Positions 26,712 to 31,332 of a stretch of DNA of 33,088 nt are shown here, in pieces. The notes beneath the pieces are model-generated. The model made no database searches. It was not told the DNA's origin and saw only the letters and a program-made list of their open reading frames with translations. Source of the DNA: Nitrospirota bacterium (GTDB lineage: Bacteria > Nitrospirota > Nitrospiria > Nitrospirales > UBA8639); NCBI GenBank assembly GCA_027623995.1, contig JAQBUF010000039.1, positions 1 to 33,088 on the forward strand. The letters are read 5' to 3'. How positions within the stretch are numbered: position 1 is the first letter of the stretch; every line of letters begins with the position of its first letter. The position numbers and the translations under genes are program-made.

Positions 26712-27235
26712 AAGAGTGAAACCCAGGTAAGGCTGAAAGGTCCTCGTTCGACAAAAGTGTAACGGGACCCAACCGCGTACATCCTTAAGGGCTTCCGCCT
26801 CCGGTGAGAAGGGGAATCCTTCAATCATAGAATTTGAGTCATCCCCACAACGGTCCCATCTCGGCAAATGACCGGCCCTTTGTAGCTGCGGCATCTCATG
26901 CCGCCGTCTTTGGTTTCACCGGATCGGGCGTGCCTGAGGAGGGCACGATGAGATCGTGCAGCTACACAAGAACTACTACAGAATCCCATCAAATCAATTC
27001 CAAGAAAAATATTCCAATGGAATCGTGAAATAGAGGTGTGGATCTAAATGTCTCTGTGATATACATACTTTTTCGAGAGGGGTAAATGGCAATGGAATTT
27101 GTGCTGATGATTTCGAGGAACGCCTAAATACCGTGGTTCTTCTGTCAGGATAATTTCCTTAATGAAGAGTATGTCATGGTGTTTGTGAGTCCTTTCTCAT
27201 AAAAGGCATGTGCCAGAAAGCAAAACCAGGCTGCC
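26712..27235. other. non-coding interval with one cloverleaf repeat
   Basis: These 524 bases between queC and the WYL gene hold palindromic repeat copy A (26879-26969). The flanks contain no convincing gene. The short readings that cross the repeat follow its palindrome and are not credible. Confidence 0.5.
26879..26969 (+). repeat. cloverleaf-like palindromic repeat, copy A
   Basis: The outer stem TGTAGCTGC (26881-26889) pairs with GCAGCTACA (26958-26966). The left arm is a hairpin GCGGCAT-CTC-ATGCCGC (26888-26904) and the right arm GCACGAT-GAG-ATCGTGC (26943-26959). Both have 7-bp perfect stems. It belongs to the same family as the copies at 28341, 29013 and 31088. Confidence 0.85.
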
Positions 27236-28220
27236 ATGCCACGAAATGATCAGATCATCCGTCAATGGCACATTCTTCGTGAGCTAGAGTCATCACGCGG
27301 AAAGACCATCAATGAATTGGCCCAGGGTCTTCCTTCCGATTACCCCAAACACGCACGTACGATTCGGCGAGATATGGAAGCGCTCGAAGCCGCCGGGTTC
27401 CCACTCATCACCGAACATCAAGACGGAGTTGTTAAATGGAAACTCATGGATGGGTATGGCAAGGTGCCCGCTCTAGGTTTTTCGCACTCGGAATTAATGG
27501 CCCTCACACTCGCGCGGCGGTTATTGGAGCCCCTAGAAGGGACCAATATCCAAGCCTCCCTCCAATCCGCTATGGCCAAGGCACAAGTTGGAATTCCCGA
27601 CAATACAGCAGGCGAACTGGCCAACATCCAAAGTGCGTTAGCGTTTGGACTGGGATCTCACAAATCGTACAAAGCGCATCGGGCTACCATCAACCAACTT
27701 AGCCAAGCCATTACCAACATGCACACCGTGCAAATGCGCTACTTCTCCGCCTCTCGGAATCAAACGACGCGGCGGGAAGTTGATCCCTATCGTCTCTGGT
27801 ATACGAGCGGGGCACTGTATCTCGTGGGCTATTGCCATCGGCGGAAGGATGTGCGGATGTTCGCCGTGGAGCGCATTCGCTCGCTCACGCTGACCGACCA
27901 TCCGTTTCAAATGGCGCTGGGATTTAACGTCAACGACTATGTGCAGGACGCCCTGGGCGTCCTGCGAGGCCGACCGATTCAAGTCGAACTGCGGTTCGAA
28001 AAAAATGACCGCGGCCTGGGTGAAGGACCGCATCTGACATGCCAGTCAATCTCTCACCTCACTGAAAACAGGGGAAATGAACATGGCGCTAACCGTGGCC
28101 AATAACCGTGAACTGGTTGGTTGGATCTTGAGCTTCGGCAGTGGAGTGCGGGTGATCAAACCCACGGGGCTCAAGCACATGGTCCGTGAAGAAGCCAAGA
28201 AAATCGTCTTGGCTAAGTGA
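27236..28220 (+). pseudogene. WYL-domain transcriptional regulator, disrupted by frameshift and stop
   Basis: The N-terminus is a DeoR/HTH_11-like helix-turn-helix (TINELAQGL, ARTIRRDMEALEAAGFPL). It is followed by the WYL domain (VDPYRLWYTSGALYLVGYC, DVRMFAVERIRSLTLTD). The intact frame ends its homology at about 28000, in a run of seven A (27999-28005), and then reads unrelated residues to a stop at 28105. The missing WCX C-terminus is in another frame: MTAAWVKDRI, then TGA at 28035-28037 where Trp is expected, then HASQSLTSL and RELVGWILSFGSGVRVI up to a stop at 28218-28220. Two independent lesions point to decay, not a single sequencing error. WYL regulators often control defence or DNA-repair genes, but none is adjacent. 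Confidence 0.8.
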
Positions 28221-28340
28221 TGGATAACGCAAGGTATGTGCGCGAACACGATATGTGGGTCTGCCAGAAGTGACTACAAGATTATGTCGATTTGGGTATT
28301 CCGCCTCTCTTGTCGGGCGAAGCGCGTCGTCAAAATTTTT

Positions 28341-28478
28341 GTGTAGCTGCAGCATCTTCCTGTCCTGAGCCCCCGTCGAAGGGATGCTGCCTCTTCCGGC
28401 GTCATGAACCCTTGGTGCATTGGCAGAAGGCACGACCCTTCGGTAGGACTCAGGGCAGGGGAGATCGTGCAGCTACAC
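28341..28478 (+). repeat. cloverleaf-like palindromic repeat, copy B (expanded arms)
   Basis: The outer stem GTGTAGCTGC (28341-28350) pairs perfectly with GCAGCTACAC (28469-28478). The left arm GCAGCATC (28349-28356) pairs with GATGCTGC (28383-28390) around a longer insert. The right arm GCACGA (28430-28435) pairs with TCGTGC (28465-28470). The two arm inserts (CCTGAGCCCCCGTCGAAGG and the CCTTCGGTAGGACTCAGGG type) are approximately complementary to each other. Confidence 0.8.
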
Positions 28479-28589
28479 AAGGAGGAATGCCTGGAGAAAG
28501 GGGGAGACAGGGGCAAGAAGTTCCATGTAGCCAGAATTGGATGGCGGTAGGGATCCCCTATGTTTTCGGTATGATCCGTCTCTTTGCGT

Positions 28590-28617
28590 TTCACGCTTCA
28601 CGCATTACGCTTCACGC
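28590..28617. repeat. four tandem heptamers TTCACGC
   Basis: TTCACGC, TTCACGC, ATTACGC and TTCACGC run head to tail, ending one base before the stop codon of the minus-strand Lrp-type gene. The third unit differs at two positions. Confidence 0.85.
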
Positions 28618-28618
28618 T

Positions 28619-28861
28619 TTATTCTTCCAACGTATACACGAGATGGGTATCGGTTTGCGCCACGCCTTCGATGGCGTGAATGCGAGTCAGGACTAATTTG
28701 GTAAGGGCTTCTTGGCTGGTGACTTCCACGCGGGCAAAGATGTCAGGCTTGCCCCAGCAGGCATCGATCGTTTTGATCTCGTCGATTTCTTCAAGCAGCT
28801 TTTTGACATTAAAGGTTTGACCTGGAAGAACGTTGATTAGCACGTACGCACTTTCCATCAT
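28619..28861 (-). CDS. Lrp/AsnC ligand-binding (RAM) domain protein, no HTH
   Basis: This 80-residue protein is a stand-alone RAM (ACT-like) domain. AYVLINVLPGQ opens the first strand, then come a helix (VKKLLEEIDEIKTID), ACWGKPDIFARVEVTS and a final helix-strand (RIHAIEGVAQTDTHLVY). It lacks the helix-turn-helix of full Lrp/AsnC regulators, so it should bind small molecules, probably amino acids, as an oligomer without binding DNA directly. Two adjacent Met codons could start it. A GGGAG lies upstream. Confidence 0.88.
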   Translation of the reverse strand: MMESAYVLINVLPGQTFNVKKLLEEIDEIKTIDACWGKPDIFARVEVTSQEALTKLVLTRIHAIEGVAQTDTHLVYTLEE

Positions 28862-29209
28862 GTACCTGACTCCCTGTTACAATGTCTATTGGCGTTTGCC
28901 CTGACTCGTTTCACCAAACGAGAAAGGCTAACGCAACCGACCCCTTCAAATCAAGGAATGGGGTGGTTATTCCATGCTTGTGACGTTGAAAAAATGAATT
29001 TCTCCAGAAAATTTTGTCGCTGCACGATCTTACCTGCCTTCGCCGTAGCGGCTTCGCGCAGGCAGGTCGTGCCCTCTTCGGGCCTTTACCTACCTGGGAC
29101 GCCCAAGAAGGAGCGGCATTAGATGCCGCAGCGACAAATTTCATGCTCTGGGGAACGCCCAAATCATGGCGTGGATCAATACTGAGTGTCTCAATAAAAA
29201 GGCAGACCA
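28862..29209. other. non-coding interval with cloverleaf repeat copy C
   Basis: These 348 bases between two minus-strand genes contain repeat copy C (29013-29138) and otherwise no convincing gene, promoter or terminator. Confidence 0.5.
29013..29138 (-). repeat. cloverleaf-like palindromic repeat, copy C (inverted orientation)
   Basis: The outer stem TTTGTCGCTGC (29013-29023) pairs perfectly with GCAGCGACAAA (29128-29138). Here the GCACGA arm is on the left (29022-29027 with 29067-29072, extended by ACCTGCCT with AGGCAGGT) and the GCGGCAT-TAG-ATGCCGC arm is on the right (29113-29129). That is the reverse of copies A, B and D. The outer stem bases differ from the other copies on both sides, keeping the pairing. 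Confidence 0.85.
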
Positions 29210-30994
29210 CTAATTTAGAGTTTTCTCCAAATCTCCCACCATGGTTTCAATTCGGTCGAATCCGGATTGCCAAAATTGCTCGGAACACATGTTCACGCCA
29301 AGGGGCTTGAGCAGGTCTTGTGGGCTTTTTGATCCGCCGCCCGCCAGTAAATCCAAGTACTTAGGAATAAACGCCTTGCCTTCTTTTTGGTATCGCTGAT
29401 AGAGCGCGAGTACTAACAAATTCCCAAAACTGTAGGCATAGCAATAAAACGGACTCCGATAAATGTGGGGGATGGTGATCCATTCCCATTGAAACTCGTC
29501 GGGGATCGTGACGCCTCGACCGAATTGTTCTTTGAGGAGCCCTAGGTAGGTTTTGGCCAGGTCGTTCACCGTGGTGCCTTTGGCAATTTGCTCGTGAGCC
29601 TGGTTTTCGAATTCGACAAAGTAGGCTTGGCGTAGGATGGTCGCAAAGAGATCATCAAGCTGCCCAAGAAGCAAGCGTTGTTTCATGCGCGGGCTAGAGA
29701 CTTCTTGCAAGAGTGCTTGGGAGAGTAATTGTTCGCCAAATACGGAGGCGGTTTCGGCCAGCGGCAGGGTGGAGTGAAAGGTAAACACGGAGTGGTGTTG
29801 TGCCATCATGCCATGGACCGCATGCCCGAGTTCATGGGCGAGGGTGGCCACGTCCCGGGCATCACCGGTGTAATTCAACAATACATAGGGCGTGAGTTTG
29901 GGGAGCACGCTGTAGCAGAAGGCTCCGCCGGCTTTTCCTGGCGTGGTGCCGGCATCGATATGTCGATCGACAAAGACTTGTTGCGCATGCTTCGCCAACG
30001 TGGGTGAGAATTGTTCATAGGCGTTGAAGACCAGTTTCTTGGCTTGGTCAAAGGGATAGGACGTTTTGGGACTTTTGGTTGGTGCGTAAATGTCGTAGCG
30101 GGTGAGTTTTTTGATTTTGCAGATTTTAGCTTTGAGCTTGAAGAATTCCTGAAAGATACCGCGGTTCTTTCGGCATGTTGAGAGCAATGTCGTGACCGCT
30201 TCATTGGGAATGTCGTTGTGGATATTGCGCACGGCGACTGGTGAGGCGTGATGTCGAAGATCGATGCCTTCATTTTTCCAATCCGCGACGAGTGTCTTGT
30301 AGATTTCGCCGAGCATGTCCGAGTGGCCTGAATAGACCTGGAGAACTTCCTGGTAGGCTCGTTTTCGAATCATGGCCGACGGGTGTCTGAAATACCCGGA
30401 CAGTTGTTCGCGCGAGAGGGGCGTGCTGGCCCCTTTCTCAGGAGACGTGAACGTCAGCCTGTTGGTGAGCACATCGTAGAGGGAGTCGAGCGCCGACCGA
30501 CCTGTGGTGTTTTTAATGTTGATGATGCGTTCTTCTGGCTCGGTCAGGGTGTGGGGCTTTAAGCGGCGCAATGAGGTCAGGTGATATCGCATGGAGGCAG
30601 TGTTGGCGAGAAGTTGCTGTGCGGTCTTGTTGGGAAGTTGCTGCCACCAGAGATCAAAAAAGAGTCCACGATTGGCCACGTTGGCCAGTCGATTTCTCAC
30701 TTTGCCTTCAAACGAGCGTGCTTTTTGATTTGTCGTGTTTTGTGCAAACCACAGATGTGAATACGCCCCTAACCGAGAACTCGATGCGGCGATCTCTTCG
30801 GTGAGTTGCAGCCCGGCTTCAAAGGTTTTTGAGCTGGTGTTGTTTTTGAGAGAAGGGCGGAGTTTTTCTAGTGCAGTGACTTTTTTGTCGAGGGTTTTTG
30901 AGATCGTGTCAAAATCTTTATCTGGGTGAGCGAGTAATTTTTTTAAATTCCATTGTGGGAGACGATCTGGAGTCGAAGGTGTATTGGTGGCCAT
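29210..30994 (-). CDS. PepF/M3-family oligoendopeptidase
   Basis: I take the ATG at 30994 because AGAGGAG lies 8 bases upstream. The longer frame to 31177 would read through repeat copy D and add 61 residues rich in Cys and His. From 30994 the protein has 594 residues. The thermolysin-like zinc motif TLAHELGHAVHGMMAQ lies at about residues 380-395, with the third ligand expected in the LPLAETASVFGEQ region. ITIPHIYRSPFYCYAYSFGNLL is typical of PepF near the C-terminus. These cytoplasmic metallopeptidases cut short peptides. Confidence 0.93.
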   Translation of the reverse strand: MATNTPSTPDRLPQWNLKKLLAHPDKDFDTISKTLDKKVTALEKLRPSLKNNTSSKTFEAGLQLTEEIAASSSRLGAYSHLWFAQNTTNQKARSFEGKVRNRLANVANRGLFFDLWWQQLPNKTAQQLLANTASMRYHLTSLRRLKPHTLTEPEERIINIKNTTGRSALDSLYDVLTNRLTFTSPEKGASTPLSREQLSGYFRHPSAMIRKRAYQEVLQVYSGHSDMLGEIYKTLVADWKNEGIDLRHHASPVAVRNIHNDIPNEAVTTLLSTCRKNRGIFQEFFKLKAKICKIKKLTRYDIYAPTKSPKTSYPFDQAKKLVFNAYEQFSPTLAKHAQQVFVDRHIDAGTTPGKAGGAFCYSVLPKLTPYVLLNYTGDARDVATLAHELGHAVHGMMAQHHSVFTFHSTLPLAETASVFGEQLLSQALLQEVSSPRMKQRLLLGQLDDLFATILRQAYFVEFENQAHEQIAKGTTVNDLAKTYLGLLKEQFGRGVTIPDEFQWEWITIPHIYRSPFYCYAYSFGNLLVLALYQRYQKEGKAFIPKYLDLLAGGGSKSPQDLLKPLGVNMCSEQFWQSGFDRIETMVGDLEKTLN

Positions 30995-31087
30995 GCAGCA
31001 AGCTCCTCTTCGGGGTGAATGTGTGACGTGAGTTGCGGATGGATTTTTATGACAATGTTGGCAAGAGGTCAAGGGGGATCTAAGATT

Positions 31088-31175
31088 GTGTAGCCGCAGC
31101 ATCTCATGCTGCCTCTTCCTGGCGTCATGAGCCTTTGGCATGGGAAGAGGGCACGATAAGATCGTGCAGCTACAC
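31088..31175 (+). repeat. cloverleaf-like palindromic repeat, copy D
   Basis: The outer stem GTGTAGCCGC (31088-31097) pairs with GCAGCTACAC (31166-31175), with one mismatch. The left arm is GCAGCAT-CTC-ATGCTGC (31096-31112), the right arm GCACGAT-AAG-ATCGTGC (31151-31167). A third, central stem CCTCTTCC (31112-31119) with GGAAGAGG (31143-31150) completes a cloverleaf. Confidence 0.85.
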
Positions 31176-31332
31176 AAGAAAGAATGTTTTCAGAAAGGGG
31201 AGGCAGGGACAAGGCATTTTCGGAATCCAGAGTAGTGGTAATCCCATGTTTTAGGTAGGACCCTTCTTTCTCTGCCTCTTGTGGAATGAAACACAACCGA
31301 ATGCCAGGCAATTTCATAGATTTATTTTTTAA

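Follow-up and report, generated by a model that had tools for sequence, protein, structure and literature searches.

Repetitive extragenic palindromes (REPs) headed by GTAG, the dimers they form and the REP-associated tyrosine transposases (RAYTs) are well described (PMC3733652, PMC3116915, PMC6006769), including REP dimers inside palindromes and strains that lack REP-flanked tyrosine transposases (REPtrons). In Anabaena and Halothiobacillus, palindromes regularly enclose REP dimers, long self-complementary loops are found in Bradyrhizobium (PMC3733652), and REPs are known as insertion targets (Tobes & Pareja 2006, PMC1525189). Here we analyzed four repeat copies (A to D) in a 33,088-nucleotide stretch of DNA (the window), which is contig C60 of the genome of a Nitrospirales bacterium (G000; 3.13 Mb, 110 contigs, 99.7% complete). 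An earlier note, made from the window sequence alone, had presented these repeats as a candidate undescribed element. That description could not be upheld, as they are head-to-head dimers of GTAG-tagged REPs, i.e., REP doublets forming hairpins (REPINs), which have already been described (PMC3733652, PMC3116915). The copies are ordinary in kind; what is unusual in the family is the nesting of about half of the sampled copies in larger elements resembling transposons, among them miniature inverted-repeat transposable elements (MITEs), and the small palindromes in the hairpin tips of many copies.

As in the GTAG REP families and head-to-head dimers of Di Nocera et al. (2013, PMC3733652), the GTAG head precedes, on the 5' side, a hairpin with a stem of 7 bp and a 3-nt loop, and the family includes head-to-head heterodimers with complementary spacer ends, clusters and a REPtron. 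Unlike in those families, the embedding units in the window genome are MITEs with 8-bp target duplications and more than one terminal type. The loop palindromes differ too, being dispersed elements found outside REPs as well. The main text of that study does not mention Nitrospira or Leptospirillum. The family also agrees with the REPINs and RAYTs of Bertels & Rainey (2011, PMC3116915) in that two inverted REPs form the replicating unit and a REP-flanked RAYT is present in the same genus, but differs from them in that no such RAYT was found in the window genome and many REPINs travel in DDE-type MITEs. The parts of the REP survey PMC12306157 considered here tabulate Nitrospira moscoviensis and describe nothing like REPIN-MITE nesting. 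In the open-licence PMC literature, we found no paper on MITE-carried REPINs with defined target duplications, nor on the window REPIN family in Nitrospirota.

Structure of the four copies

Each copy is a pair of inverted REPs in head-to-head orientation with a short conserved spacer, as seen in pair counts and an alignment of 34 standard-length copies (those of the own genome plus two adjoining the RAYT of a same-genus relative, G002). The REPa half reads GTAGCT-GCRGCAT-CTN-ATGCYGC-CTCTTC and the REPb half, on the opposite strand, GTAGCT-GCACGAT-CTN-ATCGTGC-CCTCTTC. Stems are 7 bp long, the loop is CTN, and the heads are GTAG in A, B and D and GTCG in C; such GTMG degeneracy is known for some REP families (PMC3733652).

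The four positions reported previously were confirmed. Copy A (26881..26966, plus strand) has GTAG heads at 26882 and at 26965 (minus strand), a REPa hairpin at 26888-26904 (GCGGCAT-CTC-ATGCCGC) and an inverted REPb hairpin at 26943-26959 (GCACGAT-GAG-ATCGTGC). Copy B (28340..28479, plus strand; 28341-28478 in the earlier note) carries a nested type-2 palindrome in both hairpin tips. Copy C (29013..29138, minus strand) is inverted, with its REPa hairpin at 29113-29129 and its REPb hairpin at 29022-29072, the latter interrupted by a type-1 tip palindrome. Copy D (31088..31175, plus strand) has uninterrupted hairpins at 31096-31112 and 31151-31167.

The outer "stem" of the copies is the pairing of the two REP heads. 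The stems proposed before were found in the arms and in the central stem of D (CTCTTCC/GGAAGAG), but a C.A mismatch is present at the base of the outer stem in D (GTGTAGCCGC/GCAGCTACAC). Because the GC of the outer stem is shared with the arm hairpins, the two folds compete. As single-stranded DNA, each copy folded much better than its shuffles (z −4.0 to −5.8). The GTAG-headed pattern for the first arm matched A, C and D, and that for the second arm matched A and D; no match was obtained in 100 shuffles of the window that preserved dinucleotides. These patterns missed B and the second arm of C only because 24–34 bp palindromes interrupt their hairpins.

Genome-wide family and covariation

Genome-wide counts were based on whole-genome pattern searches and fetched stretches of the own genome. 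The REPa half had 93 matches in the own genome with no more than one mismatch, whereas the reversed pattern, used as a control, had none. Copy D alone had 56 BLAST matches in this genome. Elsewhere, REPa matches numbered 16 in G001 and 2 in G002 (both of the same genus, the latter an incomplete genome) and 47 in G011 (another genus of the family); genus g4 had few, and 64 of 79 genomes had none. Copies occurred singly and in tandem arrays (C59 and C21). The arrays (L069:2483-3256 in C59 and L070:3291-3720 in C21) have a period of ~130–140 bp and common GGGATGTCGGGACGGTGTG spacers. Contigs C6, C37, C39, C45, C47, C97, C98 and C107 start or end near REP copies; it is thus probable that REPs cause breaks in the assembly and that more copies exist than were counted.

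Stem pairs were counted on the alignment. All four window copies aligned under one model, consistent with the single design seen in the earlier note. In this alignment, 89.6% of cells paired in the named structure and the arm hairpin stems were 99.6–100% paired. Bases did change together on both sides of the stems, with 37 double-changed cells observed versus 15.4 with shuffled partners and 4–12 with slid partners; double changes in the arm stems included A-U/G-C and G-C/A-U/C-G. This covariation supports a maintained fold, but since both strands fold alike, it does not separate DNA from RNA.

REPINs nested in MITEs

Alignment of whole neighbourhoods revealed that conserved sequence extends well beyond the REPIN. 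By profile search, a flank belonging to one of three classes was present in 47 of 83 distinct extracted REPINs, 37 of which had the same class on both sides; one REPIN was a class-3/class-1 chimera. Class 1 (~300–350 bp; both ends GGATCATAC(GCAATATA or NGAATTTA)) and class 2 (~260–340 bp; GGATCARTCGCAATTTTGGTGG at both ends) are MITEs of the usual sort, having terminal inverted repeats (TIRs) of the form GGATCA... as well as 8-bp target duplications, and all 29 class-1/class-2 TIR pairs in own-genome loci contain REP heads. Class 3, a possible IS630/Tc1-mariner-type MITE, has TATAG.../...CTATA ends in several copies; no transposase was found for it.

The 8-mers flanking these elements matched at seven or more of eight positions in 7 of 17 class-1 and 7 of 9 class-2 elements, and were exact for L007, L040, L157 and L314 (class 1) and for seven of the nine class-2 elements. 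Mean flank identity peaked at k = 8 (0.76 for class 1 and 0.94 for class 2, compared to ≤0.46 at other lengths), the class-1 value being somewhat inflated by use of the best pairing of alternative termini, to which class 2 is insensitive.

In the window, copy B is carried by a class-1 MITE (28292..28585, plus strand), whose flanks were identified with an nhmmer profile at 28292-28342 (E 2.4e-8; the left terminus is unrecognisable and may begin near 28223) and 28478-28585 (E 4.1e-22); its right terminal repeat, GGATCATACCGAAAACATAG, is at 28558-28577 on the minus strand. The right part of a class-1 MITE is also present on copy D (31174..31270, plus strand, E 2.9e-14), with the left part missing or decayed. 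A and C were considered as class-3 members; the match was weak for C (E 2.3) and absent for A, and both were left unassigned.

Class-1 termini were also found without REPINs. G002 contains a 1427-bp insertion sequence (IS) with class-1 TIRs, whose open reading frame encodes a predicted DDE_Tnp_ISL3 / ISAon1-family transposase, and G048 and G027, which belong to another genus, contain REP-less elements of 444–560 bp with class-1 TIRs, two of them with perfect 8-bp duplications. No autonomous IS with class-2 ends was seen. Because the class-1 terminus family exists without REPINs, the REPINs appear to have been captured by the MITEs, and DDE transposition has apparently spread them as cargo. The MITEs resemble IS elements and MITEs of the ISL3 family (ISAon1 group) in their termini, 8-bp target duplication and the DDE_Tnp_ISL3 transposase of the same-genus IS with class-1 TIRs; unlike ISL3-family MITEs, those of the window genome have a REPIN core.

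Palindromes in hairpin tips

B and C look unusual because 24–34 bp palindromes sit in their hairpin tips. By comparison with uninterrupted sister copies, B has type-2 palindromes in its REPa hairpin (CCTGTCCTGAGCCCCCGTCGAAGGG, 28359..28383, plus strand) and in its REPb hairpin (CCCTTCGGTAGGACTCAGGGCAGG, 28436..28459, plus strand). C has a type-1 palindrome (CCTGCCTTCGCCGTAGCGGCTTCGCGCAGGCAGG, 29033..29066, plus strand) in its REPb loop, after ...GATCTTA. The earlier note missed these nested palindromes, which lie behind the odd shapes of B and C, and also the larger MITEs around many copies.

The type-1 sequence is a 34-bp palindrome (CCTGCCTTCGCCGNAGCGGCTTCGCGCAGGCAGG). Of its 25 own-genome occurrences, 21 were located at one REP-loop position, after ATCTYA, in REPa-like and REPb hairpins of several stem types, and the other four were in another repeat, after TGCTGGA. 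The type-2 palindrome (24–25 bp, CCTGTCCTGAGC...GTCGAAGGG) behaves similarly and is also present outside REPs. Both the 34-bp and 24-bp palindromes are hosted as well by another dispersed repeat of the own genome (GCTGCGGCCTTGCTGGA...CGAACTTTTTTGAACATTCCC; L178, L185, L186 and L012). In other genomes, the 34-bp palindrome was found outside REPs (G002) and in a REP loop (G011). One sister REPIN pair is near-identical except that one member has the tip insert and the other does not. The simplest reading of these patterns is that the tip palindromes would arrive by insertion.

Small dispersed repeats (SDR) of cyanobacteria are very short dispersed palindromes that insert in other repeats. The tip palindromes would resemble SDR, which are named in PMC3116915, in behaviour; sequence and phylum differ. 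REP hairpins are also preferred insertion sites of IS1397, ISKpn1 and IS621 (PMC1525189); in contrast to these, the putative inserts of the window genome are gene-less palindromes of 24–34 bp that lack a target duplication.

A RAYT within the genus

In G002 we detected a 149-aa Y1 transposase (L112:1441-1890) with a complete REPIN upstream and REPs of the window family downstream. Among solved chains, E. coli TnpA-REP (4er8) is closest to this protein (E 5.7e-11), and the alignment includes the HUH and C-terminal Tyr regions. A relative in G018, a member of the same family, is 70% identical; the GTAG REPs around it have the same CATCTCATG tips. Elsewhere in the order, more distantly related transposases are accompanied by GTAG REPs whose stems differ, as would be expected for co-evolving RAYT/REP pairs. 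The check for a RAYT proposed by the earlier note was positive for the genus, but not for the own assembly: its Y1 transposases were rejected as REPIN partners, with no GTAG REPs nearby. The G002 RAYT had no match in the assemblies of G000, G001 (2 contigs) or G011, so the REPINs of these three genomes look orphaned. Loss of REPtrons has been documented for E. coli strains (PMC3733652), and a REP-flanked RAYT is therefore not required in each genome; a REP-flanked gene of the own genome could also lie in an assembly gap.

The own genome has four Y1 transposases. Two of them, near-identical RAYT-like proteins of 226 aa (L001:1462-2142 and L002:1462-2142, in C39 and C24), have their own GGGGACGTTACCC termini and lie between inverted ends of the AAAAGGGGACGTTACCCTTTT type, which also occur as a cluster of short copies near L066:7445-7710; unlike classical RAYTs, they look mobile. 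Another, of 320 aa (L003:185-1147, in C55), shows a weak match to the DnaA C-terminal helix-turn-helix and is preceded by a GGGGTCAGGTCTTGA sequence, which fits the GGGGWSAS motif of TIRYT ends (PMC3733652).

Genomic context and the orthologous locus

As previously noted, all four copies are in noncoding DNA between genes: A between queC and a WYL regulator, B between WYL and Lrp/AsnC, C between Lrp and an M3 peptidase, and D between the M3 peptidase and HTH-PBP. The WYL gene (27236-28222) looks frameshifted, as its conserved C-terminal end (LVGWILSFGSGVRVIKPTGLKHMV...) runs on in another frame to 28222, just before the region of the class-1 MITE with copy B. The gene could be a pseudogene, or the frameshift could reflect an assembly error.

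Judged by one protein, the nearest named relatives are Nitrospira/Nitrospirales MAGs; such relatives are ~56–72% identical at the protein level. G001, of the same genus, was used for the orthologous-locus comparison suggested by the earlier note. In G001, queC, Lrp, the M3 peptidase and HTH-PBP are kept in the same order, but all four REPINs, and likewise the WYL gene, are absent from this locus. The Lrp-M3 gap is ~54 bp in G001 and ~262 bp in the window; for the M3-HTH gap, the respective lengths are ~181 and ~353 bp.

Origin of the elements and alternative explanations

We consider it probable (roughly 0.87) that the four copies are REPINs spread by a RAYT, some of which were captured in trans-mobilised MITEs, with additional palindromes in the hairpin loops. 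As non-autonomous mobile DNA made of two head-to-head GTAG-tagged REP hairpins, the REPINs would originally have been spread by a RAYT (TnpA-REP, an HUH/Y1 transposase acting on single-stranded hairpins). In the window lineage, some would later have been captured in MITEs, short TIR-bounded elements mobilised in trans by DDE transposases, and MITE transposition would have multiplied them further. B would then be a MITE-borne copy and D a MITE remnant, with A and C either free or too decayed to assign, and palindromes of 24–34 bp would have entered many REP-hairpin loops at a single fixed site and so made the arms of B and C longer. Mobilisation by a RAYT, mobilisation of the MITEs by an ISL3-type transposase, the order of events and the arrival of the tips by insertion are what we infer from sequence comparisons.

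Several observations weigh against this scenario. None of the four Y1 transposases of the own genome is flanked by GTAG REPs of this family, and the fetched parts of that genome contained no intact IS bounded by ends of class 1 or class 2. The G002 IS has no visible target duplication, in contrast to ISL3-family elements; the exact boundaries of class 3 are not fully defined, and the class-1 flank identity is subject to the inflation mentioned above. In addition, 36 of the 83 REPINs, A and C included, have no MITE flank. The last point, together with the REP-flanked RAYT of the genus and the local duplication evident in the tandem arrays at C59 and C21, would also fit spread of all copies by a RAYT, the conserved flanks being segmental duplications or conversions around REPINs. 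However, the ends of the flanks are inverted repeats with 8-bp duplications on their outer sides, and these termini are also found on REP-less elements of another genus and on an ISL3-type IS within the genus. Segmental duplication would not yield this pattern, making this explanation improbable.

The earlier note had left a choice between a REP/MITE family, a structured RNA and a protein-binding site, and the results favour a dispersed family of REP/MITE type. Strong folding, covarying stems and the position of copies between genes, often adjoining gene ends, could point to a riboregulator, terminator or mRNA stabiliser kept for its function and copied within mobile DNA, and elsewhere in bacteria REPs can have a role in termination or in the stability of mRNA (cited in PMC8049555). 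But there was no Rfam match at the gathering threshold or at E ≤ 1, covariation in an inverted palindrome does not favour either strand, the copies do not share one orientation with respect to genes (C is inverted), and mobility is accounted for without RNA; with the same-genus locus lacking every copy while synteny is intact, we regard an RNA function as very improbable. Selection at each locus for a binding site (e.g., for IHF, gyrase or Pol I), as known for bacterial interspersed mosaic elements of E. coli (cited in PMC1525189 and PMC8049555), appears slightly less likely still, as no copy is conserved at the G001 locus.

A more far-reaching version of the MITE-capture scenario is that, in a lineage without its RAYT, REPINs are kept alive and amplified by unrelated DDE transposases via at least two MITE types, while gene-less 24–34 bp palindromes insert precisely in single-stranded REP loops after CTYA, possibly via an HUH/Y1 enzyme. 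We consider this version doubtful, although clearly less so than the RNA, binding-site and duplication alternatives.

Implications

The usual view is that REPINs rely on one domesticated RAYT. Should they be able to persist in RAYT-less genomes by hitchhiking in MITEs, they would have a further way of being maintained and spread, and the number of REPINs would by itself no longer report RAYT activity. The tip palindromes would provide a clean case, open to counting, in which very small DNA inserts at one hairpin-loop position, with sister copies containing and lacking the insert present within one genome.

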